From: Lutibacter sp. A64
GTDB lineage: Bacteria; Bacteroidota; Bacteroidia; Flavobacteriales; Flavobacteriaceae
DNA length: 64,000 nt
Direction of reading: 5' to 3'
NCBI RefSeq assembly: GCF_022429565.1
Contig: NZ_CP092487.1
Span: 1,558,501-1,622,500 of the forward strand
Shown here: positions 4,388-47,336 of the stretch, in pieces
How the letters are laid out: each line of letters opens with the position of its first letter
Numbering within the stretch: the stretch's first letter is position 1
Translations under genes and position numbers: made by a program
The notes under the pieces: generated by a model
Told to the model about the DNA's origin: nothing
The model's database searches: none
What the model saw: the letters and a program-made list of their open reading frames with translations, nothing else

Positions 4388-5155
4388 TTATTTTGTTTCA
4401 TTTAAATATACTTCTCTTACTTTTTTAAATAAATTTGAAGAATAAACAAATTTTACAATCGCCTCATTTTCAGTTTTAAATATTTCTTTATTACTTCCTT
4501 CCCATGCTTTTACTCCATCTTTTAAAAAAACAATTTTTTCTCCAATTTCCATCACCGAATTCATATCATGAGAGTTTATTACGGTAATAATTTGATATTC
4601 TTTGGTAATTTCTTGAATTAAATTATCTATTAAAGTTGCCGTATTTGGATCTAATCCAGAATTTGGTTCATCGCAAAATAAATATTTAGGTTTCATAACA
4701 ATTGCTCTTGCAATAGCAACTCTTTTTTGCATTCCTCCAGATATTTCGGCAGGGAATTTTTTATTTGCATTTACTAAATTTACCCTATCTAATACAAAGT
4801 TTACACGTTTTAACATCTCTGCATTACTATCGTTTGTAAACATTTTTAAAGGGAACATTATGTTTTCTTCTACGGTTAAAGAGTCGTACAAAGCACCACC
4901 TTGAAAAACCATTCCAATTTCTTGTCGTAATTGCCTTCTCTCTTTAATATCCAGTGCTGTTTGATTTCTTCCATCGAAACAAATTCCGCCTTTTTCTGGA
5001 ACATGTAGTCCTAATAAACATTTTAAAAAAACTGTTTTTCCGGAACCACTCTGACCAATAATCATACTGGTTTCTCCTTTTTCAAAAGTTGTTGTTATAC
5101 CTTTTAAAACTGGAGTTCCACTAAATTCTTTATATAAATCTGTAACTTCAATCAT
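4388..5155 (-). CDS. mlaF: ABC transporter ATP-binding protein, MlaF type
   Basis: The 255-residue ATPase has Walker A GQSGSGKT (34-41), a Q-loop at VFQGG (about 83-87), signature ISGGMQKR (138-145) and Walker B with catalytic Glu, YLFCDEP (158-164). The ISGGM signature and the 'ALYDSLTVEEN' segment are typical of MlaF/Mkl proteins, which power phospholipid transfer between the membranes with the permease MlaE and an MCE-domain protein. The mlaE gene ends one base before this ATG, so the two are certainly co-transcribed. No MCE (MlaD) gene is next to them; it must be encoded elsewhere. The gene name is by family, not proven orthology. Confidence 0.88.
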   Translation of the reverse strand: MIEVTDLYKEFSGTPVLKGITTTFEKGETSMIIGQSGSGKTVFLKCLLGLHVPEKGGICFDGRNQTALDIKERRQLRQEIGMVFQGGALYDSLTVEENIMFPLKMFTNDSNAEMLKRVNFVLDRVNLVNANKKFPAEISGGMQKRVAIARAIVMKPKYLFCDEPNSGLDPNTATLIDNLIQEITKEYQIITVINSHDMNSVMEIGEKIVFLKDGVKAWEGSNKEIFKTENEAIVKFVYSSNLFKKVREVYLNETK

Positions 5156-5896
5156 TTATCCTAATAACATTTGAGTTAAAAAGTAATTTAATAAAATAAT
5201 TACAACACTTGTCCAAACCACAGCTTGAGTACTAGCTCTACCAACCTCTAAAGATCCGCCTTTTACATAATATCCGTGGTATGCAGGTATCGTAGCAATT
5301 ACAAACGCAAAAACCAAAGTTTTTATAAGTGCATATTGTATAAAATAGGGATTGAAATCTAGTTGAATTCCATAAACATAATCTTCACTAAAAAATCTTC
5401 CTGTTAAAAGCCCTGCAACATATCCACCATAAATACCTAAAAACATGGCCAATACAATTAAAATTGGATAAAAGAATAAGGTTGCAATAATTTTAGGTAA
5501 TATTAAGTAATTTAAAGAGTTAATACCCATTACTTCTAGAGCATCTATTTGCTCAGTTACTCGCATAGTTCCAATACTAGATGAGATATAAGATCCTACC
5601 TTACCGGCTAAAATAACACTCATAAAAGTTGGTGCAAATTCCAAAATCATAGATCTTTTAGTTGCAAACCCAATTAAATATTTTGGTATAAAAGGACTAT
5701 CTACATTTAATGCGGTTTGTATAGCAACAACACCTCCTACAAAAAAGGATATAAATATTATAATCCCTAAAGATTTTAAACCTAAATCTTCAATTTCACG
5801 AAACAATGTCTCTCTAAAAACCGACCATTTTTGTGGTTTTTTAAAAACTTGTTTCAGCATAATAAAATACTTTCCAATATGCTCTAAATAATTCAT
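5156..5896 (-). CDS. mlaE: MlaE family ABC transporter permease
   Basis: The 246-residue integral membrane protein of the DUF140/MlaE family has about five hydrophobic segments starting near residue 42. The conserved permease core includes LAGKVGS and IGTMRVTEQIDALEVMGI (about 96-125), where the family contacts the ATPase. It forms the inner-membrane channel of the Mla-type lipid transporter with the downstream MlaF, whose start codon abuts its stop. It is the first gene of a two-gene operon. The 114-bp gap upstream separates it from the divergent phosphatase gene. Confidence 0.88.
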   Translation of the reverse strand: MNYLEHIGKYFIMLKQVFKKPQKWSVFRETLFREIEDLGLKSLGIIIFISFFVGGVVAIQTALNVDSPFIPKYLIGFATKRSMILEFAPTFMSVILAGKVGSYISSSIGTMRVTEQIDALEVMGINSLNYLILPKIIATLFFYPILIVLAMFLGIYGGYVAGLLTGRFFSEDYVYGIQLDFNPYFIQYALIKTLVFAFVIATIPAYHGYYVKGGSLEVGRASTQAVVWTSVVIILLNYFLTQMLLG

Positions 5897-5984
5897 TAAA
5901 TTTTCTTTTTTGCTAAAATATTAAAATTATATCACCTTTAATCTTTTTGTAACATAAATTTAATCTTTCAAAATAAAAAATACC

Positions 5985-5992
5985 TAATTTTG
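5985..5992 (+). promoter_or_regulatory. Candidate -7 element of the alkaline phosphatase gene
   Basis: TAATTTTG matches TAnnTTTG 18 bases before the ATG at 6011. There is no properly spaced TTTG upstream, so only one box supports it. Phosphate control is plausible for the gene family but I saw no clear repeated regulator site here. Confidence 0.3.
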
Positions 5993-6010
5993 AAACGTAA
6001 AATATTTTAA

Positions 6011-7699
6011 ATGAAAAAACTACTTATACTCTCTTTAGTTAGCTTTACATTAATTCAATGTATTGCTATAAAAGCAGAATCGAACACAAGCTCAACTACC
6101 GAAATTACTACTAAAACACAACTAGAAATTTATGAGAAAAACCCTAAGTTAATTGTGGGAATTGTTGTAGATCAAATGCGTTATGATTATTTGGTTAAAT
6201 TTTATAATAAATATAGTGAAGGCGGCTTTAAACGTTTAATGAACAATGGCTACAATTTAAAAAATGTACATTATAATTATATTCCAACATATACCGCTGT
6301 TGGACATACTTCTATTTATACTGGAACCACACCGGTAAATCACGGAATTATTTCTAATAACTGGTACGATAAATATTTAAAAAAATCAATTTATTGTGTT
6401 GATGATGATAATTACCGAACTGTTGGGGCAATTTCTGGAGGAAATAAATCACCCCATAGAATGTTAACAACTACTATTACCGATCAATTAAAATTAGCAC
6501 AAAATATGAATGGAAAAACCATTGGAGTTGCTATAAAGGATCGATCTTCAATTTTACCTGCAGGACATACAGCCGACGCGGCTTATTGGTTTGAAGGCGG
6601 TAATGAAGGTAAATTTATGACAAGCACATTTTATATGGATAAAATCCCAAACTGGGTTACAAATTTCAACAACTCAGGCAAGGCTAATAGTTATTTAAAT
6701 GATACTTGGGATACCTATTACGATATAGATACATACACAGAAACATTACCAGACAATAATGAGTTTGAAGGAACTTTTAAAGGCAAAGAAACACCTACTT
6801 TTCCATACAATTTAAAAGAATTAAGAAAATTAAACGATAATTATAGCCTTATAAAAGCGATTCCTGCAGGTAACACAATAACTACAGATTTTGCTGAAGC
6901 TACTATTTTGGGTGAAAATTTAGGTAAAGGAGAATTTACAGACTTTTTAGCTATCAGTTATTCTAGTACAGATTATGTAGGTCATCAATTTGGAGTAAAC
7001 GCTAAAGAATTAGAAGATACTTATATTCGTTTAGATAAAGATTTAGAACGCTTTTTAAACTTTTTAGATACAGAAATAGGTAAAGATAATTACACCATCT
7101 TTTTAACCGCAGATCACGCAGCAGTGCAAGTACCTGCTTATTTAAATTCTTTAAAAATACCAGGAGGTTATTTTGAAACTACTAAATTTAAGAAGTTTGT
7201 AAATGAAATTACTTTAGAGTATTTTAATTCAGATGAGTTAGTTGAAAACATTTCTAATTACCAAGTTTTTTTAAACAAACAAAAATTAAAAGAATTAAAA
7301 CTAGATACTAAAATTGTATCTCAAAAAATTGCAGACGAAATTTTAAATTTTGACAATGTTTATAAAACTGTAACTGCACACACATTGCAAACAACTAGTT
7401 TTACTTCTGGAATTTTAAAAACATTACAAAACGGATACAATCAAAAATTTTCTGGAGATATTTTATACGTACCAAACCCTTCAACAATTCCTAATTATTC
7501 AAAAACAGGAACTACGCACGGTTCTGGTTATGCATACGACACACACGTGCCATTATTATTTTACGGTGCTAAAATTAGTAAAGGAAGCTCTAACAATTAT
7601 TATCCAATTGTAGATATTGCTCCAACCCTAGCTAGTCTTTTAAATATATCCGAACCAAACGGATCTACAGGAAACGTTATTCTTGAAGTTTTAAAATAA
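6011..7699 (+). CDS. PafA-type alkaline phosphatase (phosphomonoesterase)
   Basis: The 562-residue alkaline-phosphatase-superfamily enzyme has metal ligand Asp54 in VVDQMRYD and nucleophile Thr95 in TYTAVGH. The pair Lys176/Arg178 in IKDRSS corresponds to the Lys162/Arg164 pair that defines PafA of Elizabethkingia and Flavobacterium. Further metal ligands are in STDYVGH and TADHA. PafA enzymes release phosphate from a wide range of phosphomonoesters without being inhibited by phosphate. The N-terminus has a hydrophobic stretch ending LIQC (Cys17), so the protein may be a lipoprotein; Gln before Cys is unusual, and cleavage after KA near residue 22 is the alternative. The gene is monocistronic, with a terminator just behind it. 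Confidence 0.88.
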   Translation: MKKLLILSLVSFTLIQCIAIKAESNTSSTTEITTKTQLEIYEKNPKLIVGIVVDQMRYDYLVKFYNKYSEGGFKRLMNNGYNLKNVHYNYIPTYTAVGHTSIYTGTTPVNHGIISNNWYDKYLKKSIYCVDDDNYRTVGAISGGNKSPHRMLTTTITDQLKLAQNMNGKTIGVAIKDRSSILPAGHTADAAYWFEGGNEGKFMTSTFYMDKIPNWVTNFNNSGKANSYLNDTWDTYYDIDTYTETLPDNNEFEGTFKGKETPTFPYNLKELRKLNDNYSLIKAIPAGNTITTDFAEATILGENLGKGEFTDFLAISYSSTDYVGHQFGVNAKELEDTYIRLDKDLERFLNFLDTEIGKDNYTIFLTADHAAVQVPAYLNSLKIPGGYFETTKFKKFVNEITLEYFNSDELVENISNYQVFLNKQKLKELKLDTKIVSQKIADEILNFDNVYKTVTAHTLQTTSFTSGILKTLQNGYNQKFSGDILYVPNPSTIPNYSKTGTTHGSGYAYDTHVPLLFYGAKISKGSSNNYYPIVDIAPTLASLLNISEPNGSTGNVILEVLK

Positions 7700-37821: not shown

Positions 37822-40734
37822 ATGAAAAATTTTAAATTTTTTTTGTTTAGTGTCATACTTCTTTTTCCCGTACTAATGTTTGCACAACAAACAATTACAG
37901 GAAATGTAACAGAAGCTAAAGGTAATTCTCCGTTACCTGGTGTTGGCATTATTATTAAAGGAACTGTAAAAGGAGCTGCAACAGATTTTGATGGGAACTA
38001 TACTTTAGAGAACGTTAAATCTGGAGACGTATTAGTGTTTTCTTATATTGGTTTTAAAACACAAGAAATAACTGTAGGAAGCAACACTGTTGTTAATGTA
38101 GCAATGGTTGAAAATTCTGAAACTTTAGACGAAGTAGTTGTAATTGGTTACGGTAGTGTAAAAAAAGAAGATTTAACCGGATCTGCAGATTTAGTTACTA
38201 CCGAAGACTTTAACCAGGGTCCTGTTGTGTCTGCACAACAACTTATTAGTGGTAAAGTTGCAGGTGTATCTGTAACCTCTAGTAGTGGTGCTCCAGGTGA
38301 AGGACAAAACATTGTAATTAGAGGTCTTGGTTCGTTATCTTTAACTAGCTCTCCGCTTATTGTAGTTGATGGAATTCCATTAAACGATGGCGGTGTTGGT
38401 GGTTCTCGTAACCCATTAAACTTAATTAACCCAAATGATATTGAAAGCATGGTTGTATTAAAAGATGCATCAGCTACTGCAATATATGGTTCTAGAGCCG
38501 CAAATGGGGTAATTATGATTACTACCAAAAAAGGAAAAGACAACGAATTTAAATTTAATGTTACTTCTTCAACAACCGTTTATAAATCTATAGATCAAGT
38601 AGATGTTTTATCTGCTGATGAATTTAGAACTTTAGTAAACGATATGGGAGATGCTGCAGTATCAAGATTGGGAGAAGCAAATACAAATTGGCAAGACGAA
38701 ATTTATCAAGATGCAATTGGTTCAGATCATACACTTAGTGCACTTGGTAGCTTAAAAGGCGTTCCAATGAGAGCGTCTGTAGGTTTTTCTGAACACGATG
38801 GTATTTTAAAAACAGACAACTTTAAAAGAACTACAGGGTCTGTAAGTTTTAAACCTAGCTTTTTAGAAGACCATTTAACTGTTGAATTAAACGGTCGTGG
38901 AATGTACACCGAAAATATTTTTGCAAATAGAGGTGCTATTGGCGGAGCTATTGCTTTTGACCCAACACAATCTATTTATGATGCAAACTCTCAATACGAT
39001 GGATATTTTGCTTGGATAGATGCAAATACTGGAAACCAAATGAACTTGGCTCCAACAAACCCTATAGCTCAATTAAATTTAAGAGAAGATTCTGCAGAAG
39101 TTAGACGCTTAATTACGAATGCGAAAGTAGATTATAATTTACAATTTTTCCCAGACATTACTGCAACTGTAAATGTTGGTTTAGATAAATCTAATAGCCA
39201 CGGAAGAACATTAACTTCTCAATATATGCCTATTTCTGAACCTAATTATAATGGTGCTAGAACTACATATAGACAAGAAGCAACAAATAAATTATTTGAC
39301 GCTTACGTAACTTATGTTAAAGAAATTAATGAAGTTCACAATTTAAATTTTGTTCTTGGACATTCATACCAATCTTTTGAATTTGATAATTACAACTATG
39401 ATAGTGAAGATGAAGAAGATGGAAATACTTACGAATTTATTGATAAATCTAAAAATACACTTTTATCGTACTTTGGAAGATTTAACTATGGTTATGATGG
39501 TAAGTATTTAGTAACTGCTACTTTAAGAGCTGATGCTTCATCTAAATTAAACCCAAATGACCGTTGGGGGTACTTCCCTTCTGTAGCGGTCGCTTGGAAT
39601 CTACATAAAGAAAATTTTATGGAAGATGGTATTTTTAATGAATTAAAATTACGTGCTGGTTACGGACAAGTTGGTAATGTTAACGGATTAAACCCTTACC
39701 AATTCTTAACTAGATACACCGGAAGTCAATCAACAGCAAATTACCAATTTGGTACTGGATTTACACAAACTTACAGACCAGAACCAATAAATGAAGATTT
39801 ACGTTGGGAAGTTGGTAAAACATTAAATGTTGGTTTAGATTATGCTTTACTTGATAATAGAATTTCAGGTTCTGTTAATGCATACATAAAAGAAACTAAC
39901 GATTTAATTGCAAGTACTTTTATTGATCCTTTTACAAATTTTGGTAATAGAATTGACGCCAACATTGGTGATATGGAAAATAAAGGTATTGAATTTGCAA
40001 TAAATGTAATTCCTGTTAAAACTGATGATATGGAATGGTCTATCGGTTATAATATTGCTCTAAACGAAAACACTGTAACAAATTTACCTGACCAACAATA
40101 TGTTGGTGGAATCTCTGGAGGTGTTGGTAACAACATACAAACTCATGTTGAAGGAGAATCTCCATACAGTTTCTTAGTATACCAACAAGTATATAATAGT
40201 GAAGGAAAACCAATTGAAGGTGTTTATGTAGATAGAAATAATGATAATATTATAAATGATGCAGATAGATATATTTATAAAAATCCTTATGCAGATGTCA
40301 TAATGGGATTAAACTCAAATTTCAACTATAAAAATTTCGATGTGTCAATTGTTACAAGAGCTAATTTTGGAAACTACTCTTACAACAATGTGGCTTCACA
40401 AACTGGTTATTTAAGAAGATCTACTGAAAACGGTATTTTAACAAACTTACACTCTAGCTCTTTAACAAACGGATTTGTTGAAACTACAGAAACTAACTTG
40501 TTAAGCGACCACTTTATTCAAGAATCTTCATTCTTTAAAATAGACAATATAACTTTAGGATATGCTTTACCTAATGTATTTGAAGATGTTTCATTAAGAA
40601 TTTACGGTTCAATGCAAAATGTATTAACTGTAACTGACTATGAAGGTTTAGACCCTGAAATTTCAGGTGGAATTGACAATAATTTTTATCCTAGACCACA
40701 ATCTTTTGTGTTAGGTGTTAATATTGATTTTTAA
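37822..40734 (+). CDS. susC: SusC-like TonB-dependent oligosaccharide transporter
   Basis: The 970-residue outer-membrane transporter has a signal peptide ending LMFAQ and a carboxypeptidase-like domain (about 22-105, TITGNVTEAKGNSPLPGVG). The SusC/RagA hallmark segment LDEVVVIGYGS (about 104-114) follows, then the plug with IRGLGSL and LIVVDGIPLND, and a large barrel ending VLGVNIDF. It forms the lidded import complex with SusD encoded 11 bases downstream. In this locus the substrate is maltooligosaccharide or starch fragments. The gene symbol is used for the family role. Confidence 0.93.
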   Translation: MKNFKFFLFSVILLFPVLMFAQQTITGNVTEAKGNSPLPGVGIIIKGTVKGAATDFDGNYTLENVKSGDVLVFSYIGFKTQEITVGSNTVVNVAMVENSETLDEVVVIGYGSVKKEDLTGSADLVTTEDFNQGPVVSAQQLISGKVAGVSVTSSSGAPGEGQNIVIRGLGSLSLTSSPLIVVDGIPLNDGGVGGSRNPLNLINPNDIESMVVLKDASATAIYGSRAANGVIMITTKKGKDNEFKFNVTSSTTVYKSIDQVDVLSADEFRTLVNDMGDAAVSRLGEANTNWQDEIYQDAIGSDHTLSALGSLKGVPMRASVGFSEHDGILKTDNFKRTTGSVSFKPSFLEDHLTVELNGRGMYTENIFANRGAIGGAIAFDPTQSIYDANSQYDGYFAWIDANTGNQMNLAPTNPIAQLNLREDSAEVRRLITNAKVDYNLQFFPDITATVNVGLDKSNSHGRTLTSQYMPISEPNYNGARTTYRQEATNKLFDAYVTYVKEINEVHNLNFVLGHSYQSFEFDNYNYDSEDEEDGNTYEFIDKSKNTLLSYFGRFNYGYDGKYLVTATLRADASSKLNPNDRWGYFPSVAVAWNLHKENFMEDGIFNELKLRAGYGQVGNVNGLNPYQFLTRYTGSQSTANYQFGTGFTQTYRPEPINEDLRWEVGKTLNVGLDYALLDNRISGSVNAYIKETNDLIASTFIDPFTNFGNRIDANIGDMENKGIEFAINVIPVKTDDMEWSIGYNIALNENTVTNLPDQQYVGGISGGVGNNIQTHVEGESPYSFLVYQQVYNSEGKPIEGVYVDRNNDNIINDADRYIYKNPYADVIMGLNSNFNYKNFDVSIVTRANFGNYSYNNVASQTGYLRRSTENGILTNLHSSSLTNGFVETTETNLLSDHFIQESSFFKIDNITLGYALPNVFEDVSLRIYGSMQNVLTVTDYEGLDPEISGGIDNNFYPRPQSFVLGVNIDF

Positions 40735-40745
40735 AAAATAAAAAA

Positions 40746-42635
40746 ATGAAAAACATATTAAATAAACTCATTTTTATTGTAGCTATCACTTTCTCTATGA
40801 CTGCTTGTCATGATGATTTAGATCAAGCACCAATTGATCCAGATAGTTTTACTGAAAAAGACGTATTTGCAGATGCAAATGAAGCAAAAAAAGCATTGGC
40901 AAAAGTATATGCTAGTTTTGCATTAACAGGTCAAGAAGGACCTGCAGGTCAACCTGATATTGCTGATATTGACGAAGGATTTTCGCAATACACAAGAATG
41001 CTTTTTAACTTAAACGAACTTACAACAGACCACGCAGTTGTTGGTTGGGGTGACCCAGGATTACCAGACTTACACGGTTTGTATTGGTCTAGTAGTAACG
41101 ATTTTACTGAAGCATTATACAGTAGATTAGCACAAGGTGTTTCTTTTAGTAACTCTTTTATTAAAATAGCATCTGATTTAACTGAAGATGAAGTTCAATA
41201 TTATATTGCTGAAGCACGTTTTTTAAGAGCTTTTGCTTATTATAATTTAATGGACCTTTACGGAAACGTTCCTTTAACTACCGAAATTTCTACAGAGTTA
41301 CCAACACAAAGTAATAGAACTGAAATTTTCGCATTTGTAGAATCTGAATTGTTAGAAATTCAAGAACTTTTAAAAGAAAGTGGAACAAATGAATATGGTC
41401 GTGTAGATCGTGTTGCTGCTTGGGCTTTATTATCTAAACTATATCTAAATGCTGAAGTTTGGACAGGAGACGCTAAATACAGTGAATGTGTTACTTATTC
41501 TGAAAAGGTAATGAACTCTAGCTACTCTATCAATACAAACGATGCAAACGGAAATGGCTCTGCATATGATGAATTATTTTTAGCTGACAATGATGTTAAT
41601 GGAGCTCAAAACGAATTTATATTCACAGCAAATTTTGATGGCTTACAATCTCAAACCTATGGTGGTTCAACATTTTTAATTCATGCTGCTATTGGTGGAA
41701 CAATGGATGCAACAGAATTTGGAGTAAATGGAGGCTGGGGTGGTCTTAGAACTACCAAAGCCTTAGTAAATAAATTTAAAGCAGATGTAACTGCCTTAAA
41801 TAATGCTCTAGGCTCAACATCTGATTGGGGATTAGTTGGTGACGCAACAGCTAACTCTTGGGATGGTCCAGATATGGAGATGTATGAAACAAGCACTAAT
41901 AAATATGAACTTTATGCTGATTTAAATGCTGGTGAAATGAAGTTTAGATTTAATGAAGATTGGGGTGTGAATTTCGGTGATACCGATGCTGATGGTACAT
42001 TAGAAACTGATGGAACTAATATTGCTATTACAAATCCTGGAACCTACTATATCCTTTTAGATTTAAATACAAACACCTACTCTATTGAACCTTATCAAGG
42101 AGACAGAAGAGCAATGTTCCATTCAGATGGTCAAAATTTAGAAATTGAAAGTATCCCTACTTTTGAAGATGGATATGCTGTAACTAAATTTAAAAATATT
42201 GATTCTAATGGAAATCAAGGTAGTGATGCTGGAGGAGATTTTACTGACACAGATTTACCTTTAATTCGTTTAGCTGAAATTTATTTAAACTATGCAGAAG
42301 CTACACTTAGAGGTGGTGGAGGCGATTTAAGCTACGCAACTTCAAAAATTAACGAATTGAGAACTAGAGCATACGGAAATACTTCTGGTAATGTAAATAC
42401 TAGCGATATAGACTTAGACTTTGTATTAGACGAAAGATCTAGAGAATTATATTGGGAAGGCCAAAGACGTACTGACTTAGTTCGCTACAACTACTTTACA
42501 ACAGATAGCTATTTATGGCCTTTTAAAGGTAATGAAGCTATGGGAATCTCGGTAGGTTCACACAGAAACCTATTTCCTTTACCTGTTAATGTATTATCTA
42601 CTAATCCTAACCTTCAACAAAATCAAGGTTACTAA
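40746..42635 (+). CDS. susD: SusD-like glycan-binding lipoprotein with an inserted SusE-type module
   Basis: The 629-residue protein has a lipoprotein signal ending MTAC (Cys21). TPR-rich SusD core motifs are present: YYIAEARFLRAFAYYNLMDLYG (about 152-173), IRLAEIYLNYAEATLR, DERSRELYWEGQRRTDLVRY and a final PLPVNVLSTNPNLQQNQGY. SusD proteins form the lid of the SusC channel and bind glycan at the surface. Residues 360-449 do not belong to a normal SusD. They start WGLVGDAT...WDGPD and continue MKFRFNEDWGVNFGD, the same module that is repeated three times in the next gene. The protein is about 90 residues longer than expected, exactly the size of the insert. Confidence 0.92.
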   Translation: MKNILNKLIFIVAITFSMTACHDDLDQAPIDPDSFTEKDVFADANEAKKALAKVYASFALTGQEGPAGQPDIADIDEGFSQYTRMLFNLNELTTDHAVVGWGDPGLPDLHGLYWSSSNDFTEALYSRLAQGVSFSNSFIKIASDLTEDEVQYYIAEARFLRAFAYYNLMDLYGNVPLTTEISTELPTQSNRTEIFAFVESELLEIQELLKESGTNEYGRVDRVAAWALLSKLYLNAEVWTGDAKYSECVTYSEKVMNSSYSINTNDANGNGSAYDELFLADNDVNGAQNEFIFTANFDGLQSQTYGGSTFLIHAAIGGTMDATEFGVNGGWGGLRTTKALVNKFKADVTALNNALGSTSDWGLVGDATANSWDGPDMEMYETSTNKYELYADLNAGEMKFRFNEDWGVNFGDTDADGTLETDGTNIAITNPGTYYILLDLNTNTYSIEPYQGDRRAMFHSDGQNLEIESIPTFEDGYAVTKFKNIDSNGNQGSDAGGDFTDTDLPLIRLAEIYLNYAEATLRGGGGDLSYATSKINELRTRAYGNTSGNVNTSDIDLDFVLDERSRELYWEGQRRTDLVRYNYFTTDSYLWPFKGNEAMGISVGSHRNLFPLPVNVLSTNPNLQQNQGY

Positions 42636-42647
42636 TATTGGAATAAA

Positions 42648-43964
42648 ATGAAAAAATTAATTAGAAATTCTATCTTTTTACTAAGCTTTCTATTCATATT
42701 AGGAGCTTGTGACGATAGAGAATTTATAGAATTAGCTGAAGACGCTAATACAACTGTAAGTGTATCAACATCATCGGTAGTATTAACTGAAGAAATAGCA
42801 GCAGACGAAATATTAACCGTTTCTTGGAGCCAACCAAACTACGGTTATAGCGCAGCACCTTCTTATAAGTTATTAATAGACCTAGAAGGTGGAGATTTTA
42901 CTGAAGCTCAAATTGTTACAGCTGGAACTGACTTAAGCAAAGTATTTACAGCTCAAGAATTAAATAGTAAAATGCTTTCATTAGGATTAACACCTAATGA
43001 AGTTACTGCTATAGATTTTAAAGTTCAAATTACTTTAAGTGATGCTCAAATTATGTATTCAGAGCCTGTAACTGTTAGTGTAACTCCATACTCTTCTTTA
43101 TTAGATTTATCATCTGCTTGGGGATTGGTAGGAAGTGCAACTCCAGGAAGCTGGGGTAACGAATTTATTCTTGACATACCTTTTTACCAAACTACAACAC
43201 CTGGTGTTTATGTTTCTTATGCTACTCTAAAAGATGGAGAAATTAAGATTCGTAAAGACAATGATTGGACATTAAATTACGGTGATACTGGTATGGATGG
43301 TCTTTTAGATGAAGGTGGAGATAATATTCCTGTTACTGCCGGAAGCTATAAAGTAACATTTAATGAAAATGATTTATCTTGGCGTATAGAACCATTTACT
43401 TGGGGATTAGTTGGTGATGCAACTCCTAATGGTTGGGATGGTCCAGACTTTAAATTAAATTACAATCCTTATCAAGACAATTGGAAAACAGTTGTAACTT
43501 TAGCTGATGGAGAGTTTAAATTTAGATTTAATAACGACTGGGGATTAAATTATGGAGATTCTGGACTTGATGGTTCAATGGAAGTTGGAGGAGATAACAT
43601 TCCTATAACAGCTGGTAATTATTTAGTAACTTTCGACCTAAACACCTTAGAATATACTCTTGAACAAATTGATGTTTGGGGCTTAGTAGGTAGTGCAACT
43701 CCTAATGGATGGGATGGACCAGATACTAAATTTATTCCAGATTTTGGAATTAACGAAGGTCTTTATTATATCAATGGTATAACCCTTGGAGATGGTGAAA
43801 TAAAAATTCGTCAGAACGATGCTTGGGGTGCTGATTTTGGAGATACTGGAAACGACGGTACTTTAGAAGCTGGTGGAGATAATATTCCTGTAACAGCTGG
43901 TACTTATAACATTGTATTCGATTCAGTGGCTCAAACTATTGCAATGTATGCGTGGCCAGAATAA
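42648..43964 (+). CDS. SusE/SusF-like outer-membrane starch-binding lipoprotein
   Basis: The 438-residue protein has a lipoprotein signal ending LGAC (Cys21). An N-terminal SusE-type immunoglobulin-like domain (about 25-155) is followed by three tandem starch-binding-like modules that start at Trp158, Trp252 and Trp344, each with WGLVG.AT and a D..W..N(Y/F)GD core, then GGDNIP(V/I)TAG. Module 2 is the closest relative of the insert in the neighbouring SusD. Such proteins hold starch on the cell surface next to the SusCD complex. It starts 12 bases after susD and is followed by a strong terminator. Confidence 0.9.
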   Translation: MKKLIRNSIFLLSFLFILGACDDREFIELAEDANTTVSVSTSSVVLTEEIAADEILTVSWSQPNYGYSAAPSYKLLIDLEGGDFTEAQIVTAGTDLSKVFTAQELNSKMLSLGLTPNEVTAIDFKVQITLSDAQIMYSEPVTVSVTPYSSLLDLSSAWGLVGSATPGSWGNEFILDIPFYQTTTPGVYVSYATLKDGEIKIRKDNDWTLNYGDTGMDGLLDEGGDNIPVTAGSYKVTFNENDLSWRIEPFTWGLVGDATPNGWDGPDFKLNYNPYQDNWKTVVTLADGEFKFRFNNDWGLNYGDSGLDGSMEVGGDNIPITAGNYLVTFDLNTLEYTLEQIDVWGLVGSATPNGWDGPDTKFIPDFGINEGLYYINGITLGDGEIKIRQNDAWGADFGDTGNDGTLEAGGDNIPVTAGTYNIVFDSVAQTIAMYAWPE

Positions 43965-44042: not shown

Positions 44043-47000
44043 ATGAAAAAAGCACTACTTCTTTTATTTTTAATACTTTCAACAGTAACTTATTCGCAAG
44101 TTACTACTATTCCTACACTTCCAACCAGTACTAGTGAAATTAGTATAAAATTTGACGCTACAGGAACTGGATTAGATGGTTATACCGGTGATATCTATGC
44201 ACATACAGGAGTAACAATAGATGGAGAACAATGGCAAAATGTTATTGAATCTTGGGGAGACAATACCACACAACCAAAATTAACGCATATTAGTGGAAAC
44301 AACTATGAATTATTAATTACACCAGATGTACATGGTTTCTACAATGTTCCAACTTCAGAAAAAATTACAGAATTATGTTTTGTATTTCGTTCAGCTGATG
44401 GAAATACAAAAAATGGAGAAGATATTTTTATCTCCTTATATGAACAAGGTGACTTAAACATCACTTTTACCGAACCTACAAACACAAGTGCTTACAACTT
44501 AAATTCAACAATAAATATAACTGCAGAAGCTTCTTTAGATGCAGATTTAGAACTTTTTGTAAATGGAGTTTCACAAAAAACGGTATCAAACAGTAAAAAC
44601 ATAACAACTCCTTTTACCCTTTCTAATACAGGAACTTACACTATTAAAGCTACTGCAACTTCTGGCAGCGAAACTTCAGAAACTGAAATTTCTATTTATG
44701 TAAAAACTCCTACGCAAAACCAAACTATGCCTTTGGGTGTTAAAAATGGTTTTAATAATAATGGAGATGGTACTGCTACCTTTGTACTTTTAGCTCCTAA
44801 TAAAAATGATGTTATATTAATAGGTGATTTTAACAATTGGACTATTAATGAAGATTATCAACTATATAAAGACGGTGAATACTTTTGGATTACATTAAAT
44901 AACTTAGATGCTGATACAGAATATGTATATCAATATTTAATAGATTATACTATTAAAGTTGCCGATCCTTATTCAGAAAAAATATTAGACCCTTGGACAG
45001 ATCAATATATTAAAGATGGGAATTATCCTAATTTAAAAGAATACCCTACCAATTTAACAGAAGGTTATGTCTCTACCTTTAAATTAAATGATACTATTTA
45101 CAATTGGCAAGTTGAAGATTTTACACGTCCAGATCAAGAAAATTTAATTATTTACGAATTGCATGTGCGTGATTTTACCGAATCAGATTCTTATACTGAA
45201 GTACTAACAAAACTAGATTACCTAGAAGAATTAGGTATAAATGCTATTGAACTAATGCCAATTAACGAATTTGAAGGTGCAGATAGTTGGGGTTATAATC
45301 CTGCATTATATTTTGCATTAGACAAAGCTTACGGTACAAAAAATGCATTTAAAACTTTGGTTGATGAATGCCATAAAAGAGGCATTGCTGTTTTAGCCGA
45401 TGTTGTTTTTAACCACTCGTACGGACAATCTCCATTAGTACAAATGTATTGGGATTCTACAAATAATAAACCTGCTGCAGATAACCCTTGGTACAATCAA
45501 GATCATAATTTCGTAGATAATACTAGCGCACATTGGGGGTACGATTTTAATCATGAATCTAGCTATACAACTTCATTTTTTAACGATGTTTTAGAATACT
45601 GGATGACTGAATATAAAATTGATGGATTTAGATTCGATTTTACAAAAGGTTTTTCAAATACACAATGGACTGGTTCAGATAACTGGGCGAGCACTTACGA
45701 TGCAGATAGAATTAGAATTTTAAAAAACTATGCGGATAAAGTATGGAGTCACGCTCCCGCTAATAAACCTTATGTAATTTTTGAACATTTATCAGACAAT
45801 CCAGAAGAAAAAGAACTTGCAGACTATGGCATTATGCTTTGGGGAAATATGAACCATAGCTATAACCAAAATACAATGGGCTATAATTCTGATACTGATA
45901 TTTCGTGGATTTCATACAAAAAACGTGGATGGAATACCCCAAATATAGTTGGTTATATGGAAAGTCATGATGAAGAACGCTTAATGTATAAAAATCTTCA
46001 ATATGGAAATGTTAGTGGAGATTATTCTGTAAAAAATTTAACAACAGCTTTAGCAAGAGAAGAACTTGCAGGAATGTTTTTATTCACCATTCCAGGACCA
46101 AAAATGATTTGGCAATTTGGAGAATTAGGATACGATTATAGTATTGATGAAAATGATAGAGTTGGAAGAAAACCAATAAAATGGGAATATAAAGATAATG
46201 CCAATAGATATCATGTATATACTACCTGGGCAACCATAAATGCCTTTAAAACTAAATACCCTGAAATATTTAACACTACAGATTTTACACTAAATGTTGG
46301 TGGTTTAACAAAAAGTATTATATTAAAACACACCTCTTTTGATGTTGTAATTGTTGGTAATTTTGATGTTACTAGTAAATCAATTTCAACAAACTTTACA
46401 AAAACAGGAACTTGGTATGAATATTTTACTGGTGAAGAAACTGAACTTTCAAATACCACACAATCTATAACTTTAAATCCAGGAGAATATAAACTATATA
46501 CTTCTAAAAAAATACTAGATCCTAGAGGTGGAACAGTTGCGGATGACAGTGATAACGATGGTGTTCCTGATACCGAAGATTTATGTCCAAATTCACCAAT
46601 AGGACAAGAAGTAAATGAAACTGGCTGTGCTACTTTTAATTTAGCTGCCAATAACTTTACTATTGAAACTACCGGAGAAACCTGTCCAGATAAAAATAAC
46701 GGGCAAATTAGCATATCTGCTGTAGCCGATTATAATTATTCTGTTACTATAGATGGAAAAGATTATAGTTTTACAAATAGCACACCTCTTGTAGTTGAAA
46801 ATTTAGATCCCGAAACTTATGATTTTTGTATTAACATTGATGATGAAACATATTCACAGTGTTATGAAGTTACCATTGAAGAAGGAACTACAGTTTCAGG
46901 AAAAACAAGTATAAGTTCTAAGACAACAACCATACAAATTTCAGAAGGAACAGCACCTTTTAATGTTTTGGTAAATGATAAATTAGTTTTAAATACCTAT

Positions 47001-47336
47001 GCTCCAGAATTTACAATTTCAACCAAACATGGAGACGTTGTAGCGGTAAAAACTGCAGTTTCTTGTGAAGGTATTTATGCAAAACAAATTAACTTATTTG
47101 AAGACATCGTTGCTTATCCAAATCCAACCCAAGGTTCTTTTGAAATAACTTTACCAACTACTGAAACAGCAGTAACTATTGAAATTTACAATGCACAATC
47201 TCAGTTAATTTTATCTAAATCATATCCTGTTTTATATGGTAAAGCACAACTTAGCTTAGAAAATAAGCCAACCGGATTGTATTTTGCTAAAATTTACTTA
47301 GAAGATACTATTTTATTAAAAATTGTAAAACAATAA
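44043..47336 (+). CDS. T9SS-exported multidomain GH13 alpha-amylase
   Basis: The 1097-residue protein has signal peptide MKKALLLLFLILSTVTYSQ. An N-terminal domain (about 25-140) with IKFDATGTGLDGYTGDIYAHTG is followed by an Ig-like domain (about 145-225) and a CBM48-like domain (VILIGDFNNW near 257). The GH13 barrel has DVVFNHSYG, DGFRFDFTKGF (nucleophile Asp near 531), VIFEHLS (Glu near 581) and ESHDEER (Asp near 643). After it come a thrombospondin-3-like calcium repeat (DSDNDGVPDTEDLCPNSP) and a type A T9SS sorting domain (YPNPTQGSFEI ... GLYFAKIYL). The tail predicts export through the secretion machinery whose PorU/PorV are in this window. Its likely job is the first attack on starch outside the cell. 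Confidence 0.9.
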   Translation: MKKALLLLFLILSTVTYSQVTTIPTLPTSTSEISIKFDATGTGLDGYTGDIYAHTGVTIDGEQWQNVIESWGDNTTQPKLTHISGNNYELLITPDVHGFYNVPTSEKITELCFVFRSADGNTKNGEDIFISLYEQGDLNITFTEPTNTSAYNLNSTINITAEASLDADLELFVNGVSQKTVSNSKNITTPFTLSNTGTYTIKATATSGSETSETEISIYVKTPTQNQTMPLGVKNGFNNNGDGTATFVLLAPNKNDVILIGDFNNWTINEDYQLYKDGEYFWITLNNLDADTEYVYQYLIDYTIKVADPYSEKILDPWTDQYIKDGNYPNLKEYPTNLTEGYVSTFKLNDTIYNWQVEDFTRPDQENLIIYELHVRDFTESDSYTEVLTKLDYLEELGINAIELMPINEFEGADSWGYNPALYFALDKAYGTKNAFKTLVDECHKRGIAVLADVVFNHSYGQSPLVQMYWDSTNNKPAADNPWYNQDHNFVDNTSAHWGYDFNHESSYTTSFFNDVLEYWMTEYKIDGFRFDFTKGFSNTQWTGSDNWASTYDADRIRILKNYADKVWSHAPANKPYVIFEHLSDNPEEKELADYGIMLWGNMNHSYNQNTMGYNSDTDISWISYKKRGWNTPNIVGYMESHDEERLMYKNLQYGNVSGDYSVKNLTTALAREELAGMFLFTIPGPKMIWQFGELGYDYSIDENDRVGRKPIKWEYKDNANRYHVYTTWATINAFKTKYPEIFNTTDFTLNVGGLTKSIILKHTSFDVVIVGNFDVTSKSISTNFTKTGTWYEYFTGEETELSNTTQSITLNPGEYKLYTSKKILDPRGGTVADDSDNDGVPDTEDLCPNSPIGQEVNETGCATFNLAANNFTIETTGETCPDKNNGQISISAVADYNYSVTIDGKDYSFTNSTPLVVENLDPETYDFCINIDDETYSQCYEVTIEEGTTVSGKTSISSKTTTIQISEGTAPFNVLVNDKLVLNTYAPEFTISTKHGDVVAVKTAVSCEGIYAKQINLFEDIVAYPNPTQGSFEITLPTTETAVTIEIYNAQSQLILSKSYPVLYGKAQLSLENKPTGLYFAKIYLEDTILLKIVKQ

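Follow-up and report, generated by a model that had tools for sequence, protein, structure and literature searches.

Starch-Binding Modules in Described Sus Proteins

The SusD of Bacteroides thetaiotaomicron (structures 3ck7-3ckc; NCBIfam model NF033071) carries no SusE-type module, and the modules of SusE and SusF (PF16411; 4fe9, 4fch, 4fem) are arranged in tandem in a separate lipoprotein. In contrast, the SusD lipoprotein encoded in a 64,000-nucleotide stretch of the Lutibacter sp. A64 genome (contig NZ_CP092487.1, positions 1,558,501 to 1,622,500; hereafter the window, from whose first letter coordinates are counted) has one such module within its own chain, at a site where it holds about 100 residues and the B. 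thetaiotaomicron protein about 40. This SusD of 629 residues (40746..42635, plus strand) is a single open reading frame with a lipobox at Cys21, as detected with a simple pattern.

Further points of comparison come from articles that are cited here by PMC number and from excerpts. The X25 modules of Ruminococcus bromii Sca5/Sas20 (7rpy) are required in a pair for binding by Sca5 (PMC9112005), whereas the SusD of the window has one module and other SusD proteins have two or three. The CBM58 inserted in domain B of SusG is likewise a starch-binding module inside another Sus protein (PMC11267923), but the host of that insertion is an amylase, while the host in the window is the lid of a transporter. 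Looped and open types of SusD have been distinguished in alpha-glucan polysaccharide utilization loci (PULs) of marine Flavobacteriia, where SusE stands beside the looped SusD, as it does in the window; however, the loop of the marine protein near the site comprises about 17 residues, and no extra module is described in the excerpted text (PMC11093988). As judged from sequence, the SusD of the window works like the B. thetaiotaomicron protein without being classified as the same one: its score of 461.9 bits against NF033071, an exception model, is below the curated cut-off of 725.

Nothing that describes a SusD with an internal SusE module was found in the openly licensed literature, supplements excluded, in excerpts that included PMC11093988, PMC11267923, PMC7618045, PMC9112005, PMC6298971, PMC6794258, PMC10316084 and PMC8636109. 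The combination is already visible in automatic annotation, which joins both in the name of the protein P0306 ("SusD family/Outer membrane protein SusF_SusE"), and an inserted starch-binding module is known from SusG. With one label per protein, PUL annotation would overlook that the transporter lid can contain SusE-family modules.

It is debated whether Sus complexes are fixed machines or assemble around SusE only in the presence of starch, and a dynamic assembly has been proposed for those that act on starch (PMC7618045, excerpt). A SusE-type module built into SusD would amount to a naturally occurring fixed complex. The effect of such tethering is directly testable, since the window's genus has both a genome with the module (G304) and one without it (G331), with SusD cores that each share about 80% identity with that of the window.

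A SusE-Type Module Between Two Halves of SusD

When residues 360-449 (41823..42092, plus strand) are searched alone, they match PF16411 (SusF_SusE) at 38.7 bits, over a cut-off of 27.5 (E 1.6e-9). The SusD fold is present over the full length of the protein, with Pfam matches above cut-off: PF07980 (SusD_RagB) extends across residues 289-629 and spans the insert, and PF14322 is also matched. PF14292, the N-terminal domain of SusE, has no match in this SusD and is found in the neighboring protein (42648-43964). Sequence and predicted structure agree that a complete SusE/SusF-family module is inserted, not appended, with an intact half of the SusD fold on either side, as a first-pass annotation of this DNA had stated with correct coordinates.

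In the alignment to the B. thetaiotaomicron SusD (3ck7), residues 23-347 and 450-629 are matched, and the insert is skipped. On the B. thetaiotaomicron side, the matched core breaks off at entry residue 336 and restarts at 377. The Trp at chain position 296 of 3ck7, which is entry residue 320 (chain index equals entry numbering minus 24, 526 versus 550), pairs with W331 of the window SusD. W320 is presumably a starch-contact residue, though a literature search did not confirm this role. The module takes the place of the loop that begins 16 residues past the matching Trp. In comparison with the insert-free SusD of G331 (525 residues), the segment from F344 to R455 has 112 residues instead of 7, so that the earlier statement that the protein is longer by just the insert holds for this relative; the B. 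thetaiotaomicron SusD has about 40 unmatched residues there.

Predicted in isolation, the module forms a beta-sandwich that aligns best with solved structures of SusF, R. bromii X25 and SusE, and 360-449 is not part of the SusD core. Model strands span residues 358-449, with block means of the predicted local distance difference test (pLDDT) of 91-96 for the insert. The preceding linker (residues 345-357, KADVTALNNALGS; 41778..41816, plus strand), in which motif comparison finds the NN-A-L-G motif common to one-module inserts, is modeled less confidently, and the module is predicted to be an independent beta-sandwich. A Foldseek search with the isolated module gave no match at E <= 0.001, with starch-binding modules at the top of that list; the fold assignment is based on VIA rows, Pfam and sequence. 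A profile of the module, searched against the sequences of solved structures, has BT3088 as its sole significant match.

A Putative Second Glycan-Binding Site on the Lid

Residue conservation was assessed in 31 one-module inserts, with L137, a 99% copy of the window protein, set aside. W372 (41859..41861) and W406 (41961..41963), both putative sugar platforms, and K399 (41940..41942) are present in 31 of 31, and N425 (42018..42020), a putative contact, in 30 of 31, all encoded on the plus strand. In the X25-2b module of Sca5, the sugar contacts are W620, K654, W661 and N684/N687 (PMC9112005, excerpt). K399 lies seven residues ahead of W406, as K654 does of W661, a match by spacing and not by residue alignment. 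Additionally, the ratio of nonsynonymous to synonymous substitution rates (dN/dS) is 0.04-0.19 for the module (nine computable of 13 chosen pairs) and 0.04-0.14 for the SusD core (11 pairs), although these ratios are rough because several dS values exceed 1. The retention of the Trp, Lys and Asn positions together with the low dN/dS suggests that the module is functional, with alpha-glucan bound through W372, K399, W406 and N425 as the candidate contacts.

In combination with the starch-type gene neighborhood, these observations point to a complete SusE/SusF-family module in an intact SusD that is likely to form a second alpha-glucan-binding site on the SusC lid; a probability of roughly 0.7 is assigned to this reading. 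As the lid moves between its open and closed positions, the module would keep a long or branched chain adjacent to the canonical SusD site. Each transporter would thereby obtain at least one starch-binding module fixed at 1:1, with less reliance on a separately assembled SusE, and the module, being part of SusD, would permanently provide a function that SusE supplies through assembly.

Several observations weigh against this assignment. Module dN/dS is higher than that of the core in seven of nine pairs, so the module is less constrained than its host. Single X25 modules of Sca5 bound neither maltotriose nor maltoheptaose while the pair did (PMC9112005, excerpt), and thus a lone module may not bind alone. 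Since the module appears to have been lost in about four lineages, it would be dispensable in some settings. Furthermore, with SusE still encoded beside the window SusD, no substitute for it is required, and in the five SusE-less loci discussed below, a divergently oriented five-module protein is encoded separately from SusD.

Alternatively, the module may serve mainly in assembly or docking, joining SusE, the surface amylase or SusC loops, with sugar binding secondary. This is the strongest of the alternatives, though an unlikely one. In the dextran utilisome, the surface glycan-binding protein is the lipoprotein nearest SusD (PMC7618045, excerpt), and the title of a study cited in PMC6298971 (excerpt) states that B. 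thetaiotaomicron SusE aids uptake independent of starch binding. A neighbor with two or three modules is kept in 29 of 32 one-module loci (in two others the neighbor has no scoring module, and in the last it is truncated by the contig), as a docking role might lead one to expect. However, the Trp pair, the Lys and the Asn, which correspond by spacing to X25 sugar contacts, are present in almost every one-module insert, and pure docking would not require them.

Distribution of Modules at the Insertion Site

The first-pass annotation regarded this SusD as exceptional, a view that database and genome searches do not support. Within the window's genus, SusD is matched at E <= 1e-60 in 22 of 38 genomes and the module is present in 13 of these 22. 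In the family sample, a SusD match at E <= 1e-80 occurs in 112 of 395 genomes, of which 32 carry one module; all 32 were read individually, and the count leaves out G942, a further genome among the 112, whose SusD is truncated at the contig end. Matches in the order sample (104 of 296 genomes) include four with the module, and those in the phylum sample (99 of 392) include 14, of which 12 have one module and two have two; eight of the 12 one-module bearers belong to a single family. Ten additional long SusD frames from the order and phylum samples were read, and none contains a module.

Altogether, 129 distinct SusD proteins were gathered: 74 with no module, 32 with one, 21 with two and two with an unrelated segment. 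Among the database matches listed (the best 120 of 1097, of 1009 and of 1803), there are 308 proteins, 261 with a SusD core, and 253 of these have at least 500 residues; one module is present in 147 of the 253, two in 104 and three in two, counts that carry no frequency information because the set was retrieved with the module as the query. In P0266 and P0281 (844-848 residues), three tandem modules occupy the same SusD site, and the first module of P0281 matches the X25 Pfam model.

Some proteins differ at the site in other ways. L016/G168 and L017/G148 were taken as insert bearers from alignment coverage and then rejected, their segment having no SusE module, and they were classed as "other." Two Flavobacterium-type SusDs (L016:1468-3306 and L065:8989-10827) have an unrelated segment of 89-90 residues at the same insertion site. 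In L153 (about 4820-7556, minus strand; G061), an insert-free SusD is followed by two tandem module proteins of 358 residues (two modules) and 551 residues (four modules), and one PF16411 match there reads through a TAA. A primer piece from PMC11093988 (excerpt), used to look for the insert in the binding-tested SusD of Flavimarina Hel_I_48, matched none of 397 genomes.

Evolutionary History of the Insertion Site

A core tree was built from 128 SusD cores with the insert columns excluded and the truncated L072 dropped. This tree requires at least 13 changes among the four module states; for the state "none" alone, 13 changes are also required, seven of them forced by starred branches, compared with a mean of 41 in shuffled data. 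Repeated gains and losses at the site are thus required by the core tree. In a more careful tree of 41 rows, rooted with Capnocytophaga and with L137 and L173 (same contig as L055) dropped, the minimum is five changes, four of them forced. Monophyly of the insert bearers within the window's portion of the tree was rejected (approximately unbiased test, AU p 0.001).

By parsimony, one gain at the base of a group of 24 rows (support 97/92) followed by four losses would account for the careful tree. The gap between F344 and R455 in insert-free proteins measures 15-21 residues in the 17 outside the 24-row group and 7 or 8 in the six inside it, and this difference in loop length agrees with the single gain and four losses. 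The insert would have been gained a single time in the clade of the window protein, would have spread to other SusD clades or survived in them, and would have disappeared on several occasions.

Exchange between genes may also have contributed. The cores of L046:27-1934 and L047:2523-4424 fall among insert-free proteins, yet their inserts and linkers are of the window type, which would reflect either exchange between SusD genes or a mixed metagenome assembly. Within one genus (L115-L135), there are alpha-glucan SusDs without the module at about 40% identity to that of the window, others that have it at 51-56% and at 79-99%, and a single module-free one at about 80%; the presence of such different SusD types in one genus suggests that the alpha-glucan locus was exchanged.

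A broader proposal, given somewhat below even odds, is that the SusD lid loop is a module port, into which one to three SusE-family modules were put, passed between SusD genes and lost exactly there; in a Saprospiraceae-type lineage, a two-module SusD would have replaced the SusE lipoprotein, a single polypeptide then serving both as lid and as surface glycan-binding protein. It is improbable that the loop is merely tolerant of insertions and the module neutral baggage. The unrelated segments in L016 and L065, the several losses and the elevation of dN/dS above the core would all fit neutrality, but the dN/dS of the module is still low, the putative contact residues are conserved, and the same module family is found at the site in several core clades and persists across families.

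Relation of the Insert to SusE

The neighboring SusE lipoprotein (42648..43964, plus strand; 438 residues, lipobox by the same simple pattern) consists, according to Pfam, of the PF14292 N-terminal domain (residues 22-127) and three SusF_SusE modules (PF16411). Because the SusE gene adjoins SusD, the module in the window adds to SusE and does not replace it, and the suggestion that SusD and SusE functions are merged does not apply literally here. It fits better in five genomes whose two-module SusDs (L074, L083, L114, L164 and L165) have no SusE downstream, and in which PF14292 has no match at E <= 0.001. The same search gives matches in G304 and in the L066 genome, and one weak match elsewhere in the L101 genome; the completeness figures at hand, for G390 and G473, are 100% each.

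All five SusE-less loci encode divergently oriented SusF_SusE proteins with five modules each by module scan (L074:3820-5583, L083:4127-5902, L114:3815-5623, L164:727-2499 and L165:10320-11999). A type IX sorting tail is present in those of L074 and L083, the two scanned, and a lipobox was absent by the simple pattern in the four checked. So SusE-type modules are retained in these five genomes, and the SusE lipoprotein alone appears to be gone, as far as PF14292 detects. Among the loci compared (L137, L173 and L166 left out), a three-module neighbor occurs in 24 of 42 one-module loci versus seven of 79 insert-free loci (34 of the 79 without a complete neighbor), and nothing is drawn from this difference because it is confounded by kinship.

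Protein identity of the insert to modules 1, 2 and 3 of its own SusE is 38/88, 47/90 and 42/93, and module 2 (43398..43670, plus strand) is the nearest of the three by its highest pairwise score (242, compared with a best of 61 among 1000 shuffled inserts). This bears out the first-pass annotation as to pairwise rank but not as to close copying. The DNA, described there as nearly identical in places, does share the 17-mer TGGGGATTAGTTGGTGA, found exactly twice on the plus strand of the window (41826 and 43401); over the aligned codons, nucleotide identity is 62%, and the third base is the same in just 27 of 47 identical residues. In an alignment that contains both, the window insert is 69% identical to the L039 insert and 49% identical to its own module 2. 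Furthermore, of 31 one-module inserts in the comparison, 28 have a scorable module in their own SusE, and each of these 28 resembles an insert from another species more than its own SusE, although the foreign pool is larger and L048 and L053 differ by just 1-3 points.

Of 32 one-module inserts, 26 have the linker motif NN-[AS]-[LI]-G, defined post hoc with the sequences already in view, ahead of the module, among them inserts in SusDs from distant core clades; the motif precedes none of 250 SusE modules and none of 42 modules from two-module inserts. The association suggests a single cassette of linker and module, inherited or exchanged among SusD genes. A module tree of 27 one-module inserts, 36 modules from two-module inserts and 90 SusE modules (153 of 324 gathered; 90 columns; 74 of 150 forks open) separates the insert from SusE middle modules with weak support. 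SusE modules tend to cluster by position in this tree; the first modules of two-module SusDs group with SusE first modules, and the second modules with the last modules of two-module SusEs (support 87). A transplanted SusE pair is thus a possible origin of the two-module inserts, whose linker is of another kind.

A recent copy of the adjacent SusE module 2, or gene conversion from it, would explain the pairwise rank of that module and the common 17-mer, yet it is extremely improbable, a recent local duplication being rejected on the identities to foreign inserts, the codon-level identity and the linker motif, with the module tree pointing weakly the same way. An artefact of frame or assembly fusing two genes is refuted, as both SusD halves lie in one open frame and the same architecture recurs in G321 (99% identity), many further genomes and named isolates.

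Gene Neighborhood

The window contains an alpha-glucan-type utilization locus with SusC, SusD, SusE and a glycoside hydrolase family 13 (GH13)-type enzyme in this order on the plus strand. The SusC-like TonB-dependent transporter of 970 residues (37822..40734; Pfam Plug, CarbopepD_reg_2 and beta-barrel) lies directly upstream of SusD, ending at 40734 where SusD starts at 40746. The gene after SusE (44043..47336, plus strand) encodes a GH13 alpha-amylase-type enzyme with a match to carbohydrate-binding module family 48 (CBM48) and a type IX sorting tail by profile matches. Given this tail, the surface amylase of the locus is likely not a lipoprotein like SusG. The same enzyme has a thrombospondin type 3 match below cut-off.

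Alongside, the minus strand encodes GH65-, GH31- and GH13-type genes, a major facilitator superfamily (MFS) transporter and a LacI-type regulator; matches below NCBIfam cut-offs are read here as GH31 and GH13. Elsewhere in the same genome, outside the window, there is a second SusF_SusE protein, a frame of 467 residues in L002 (G000:C1:2309184-2312552).
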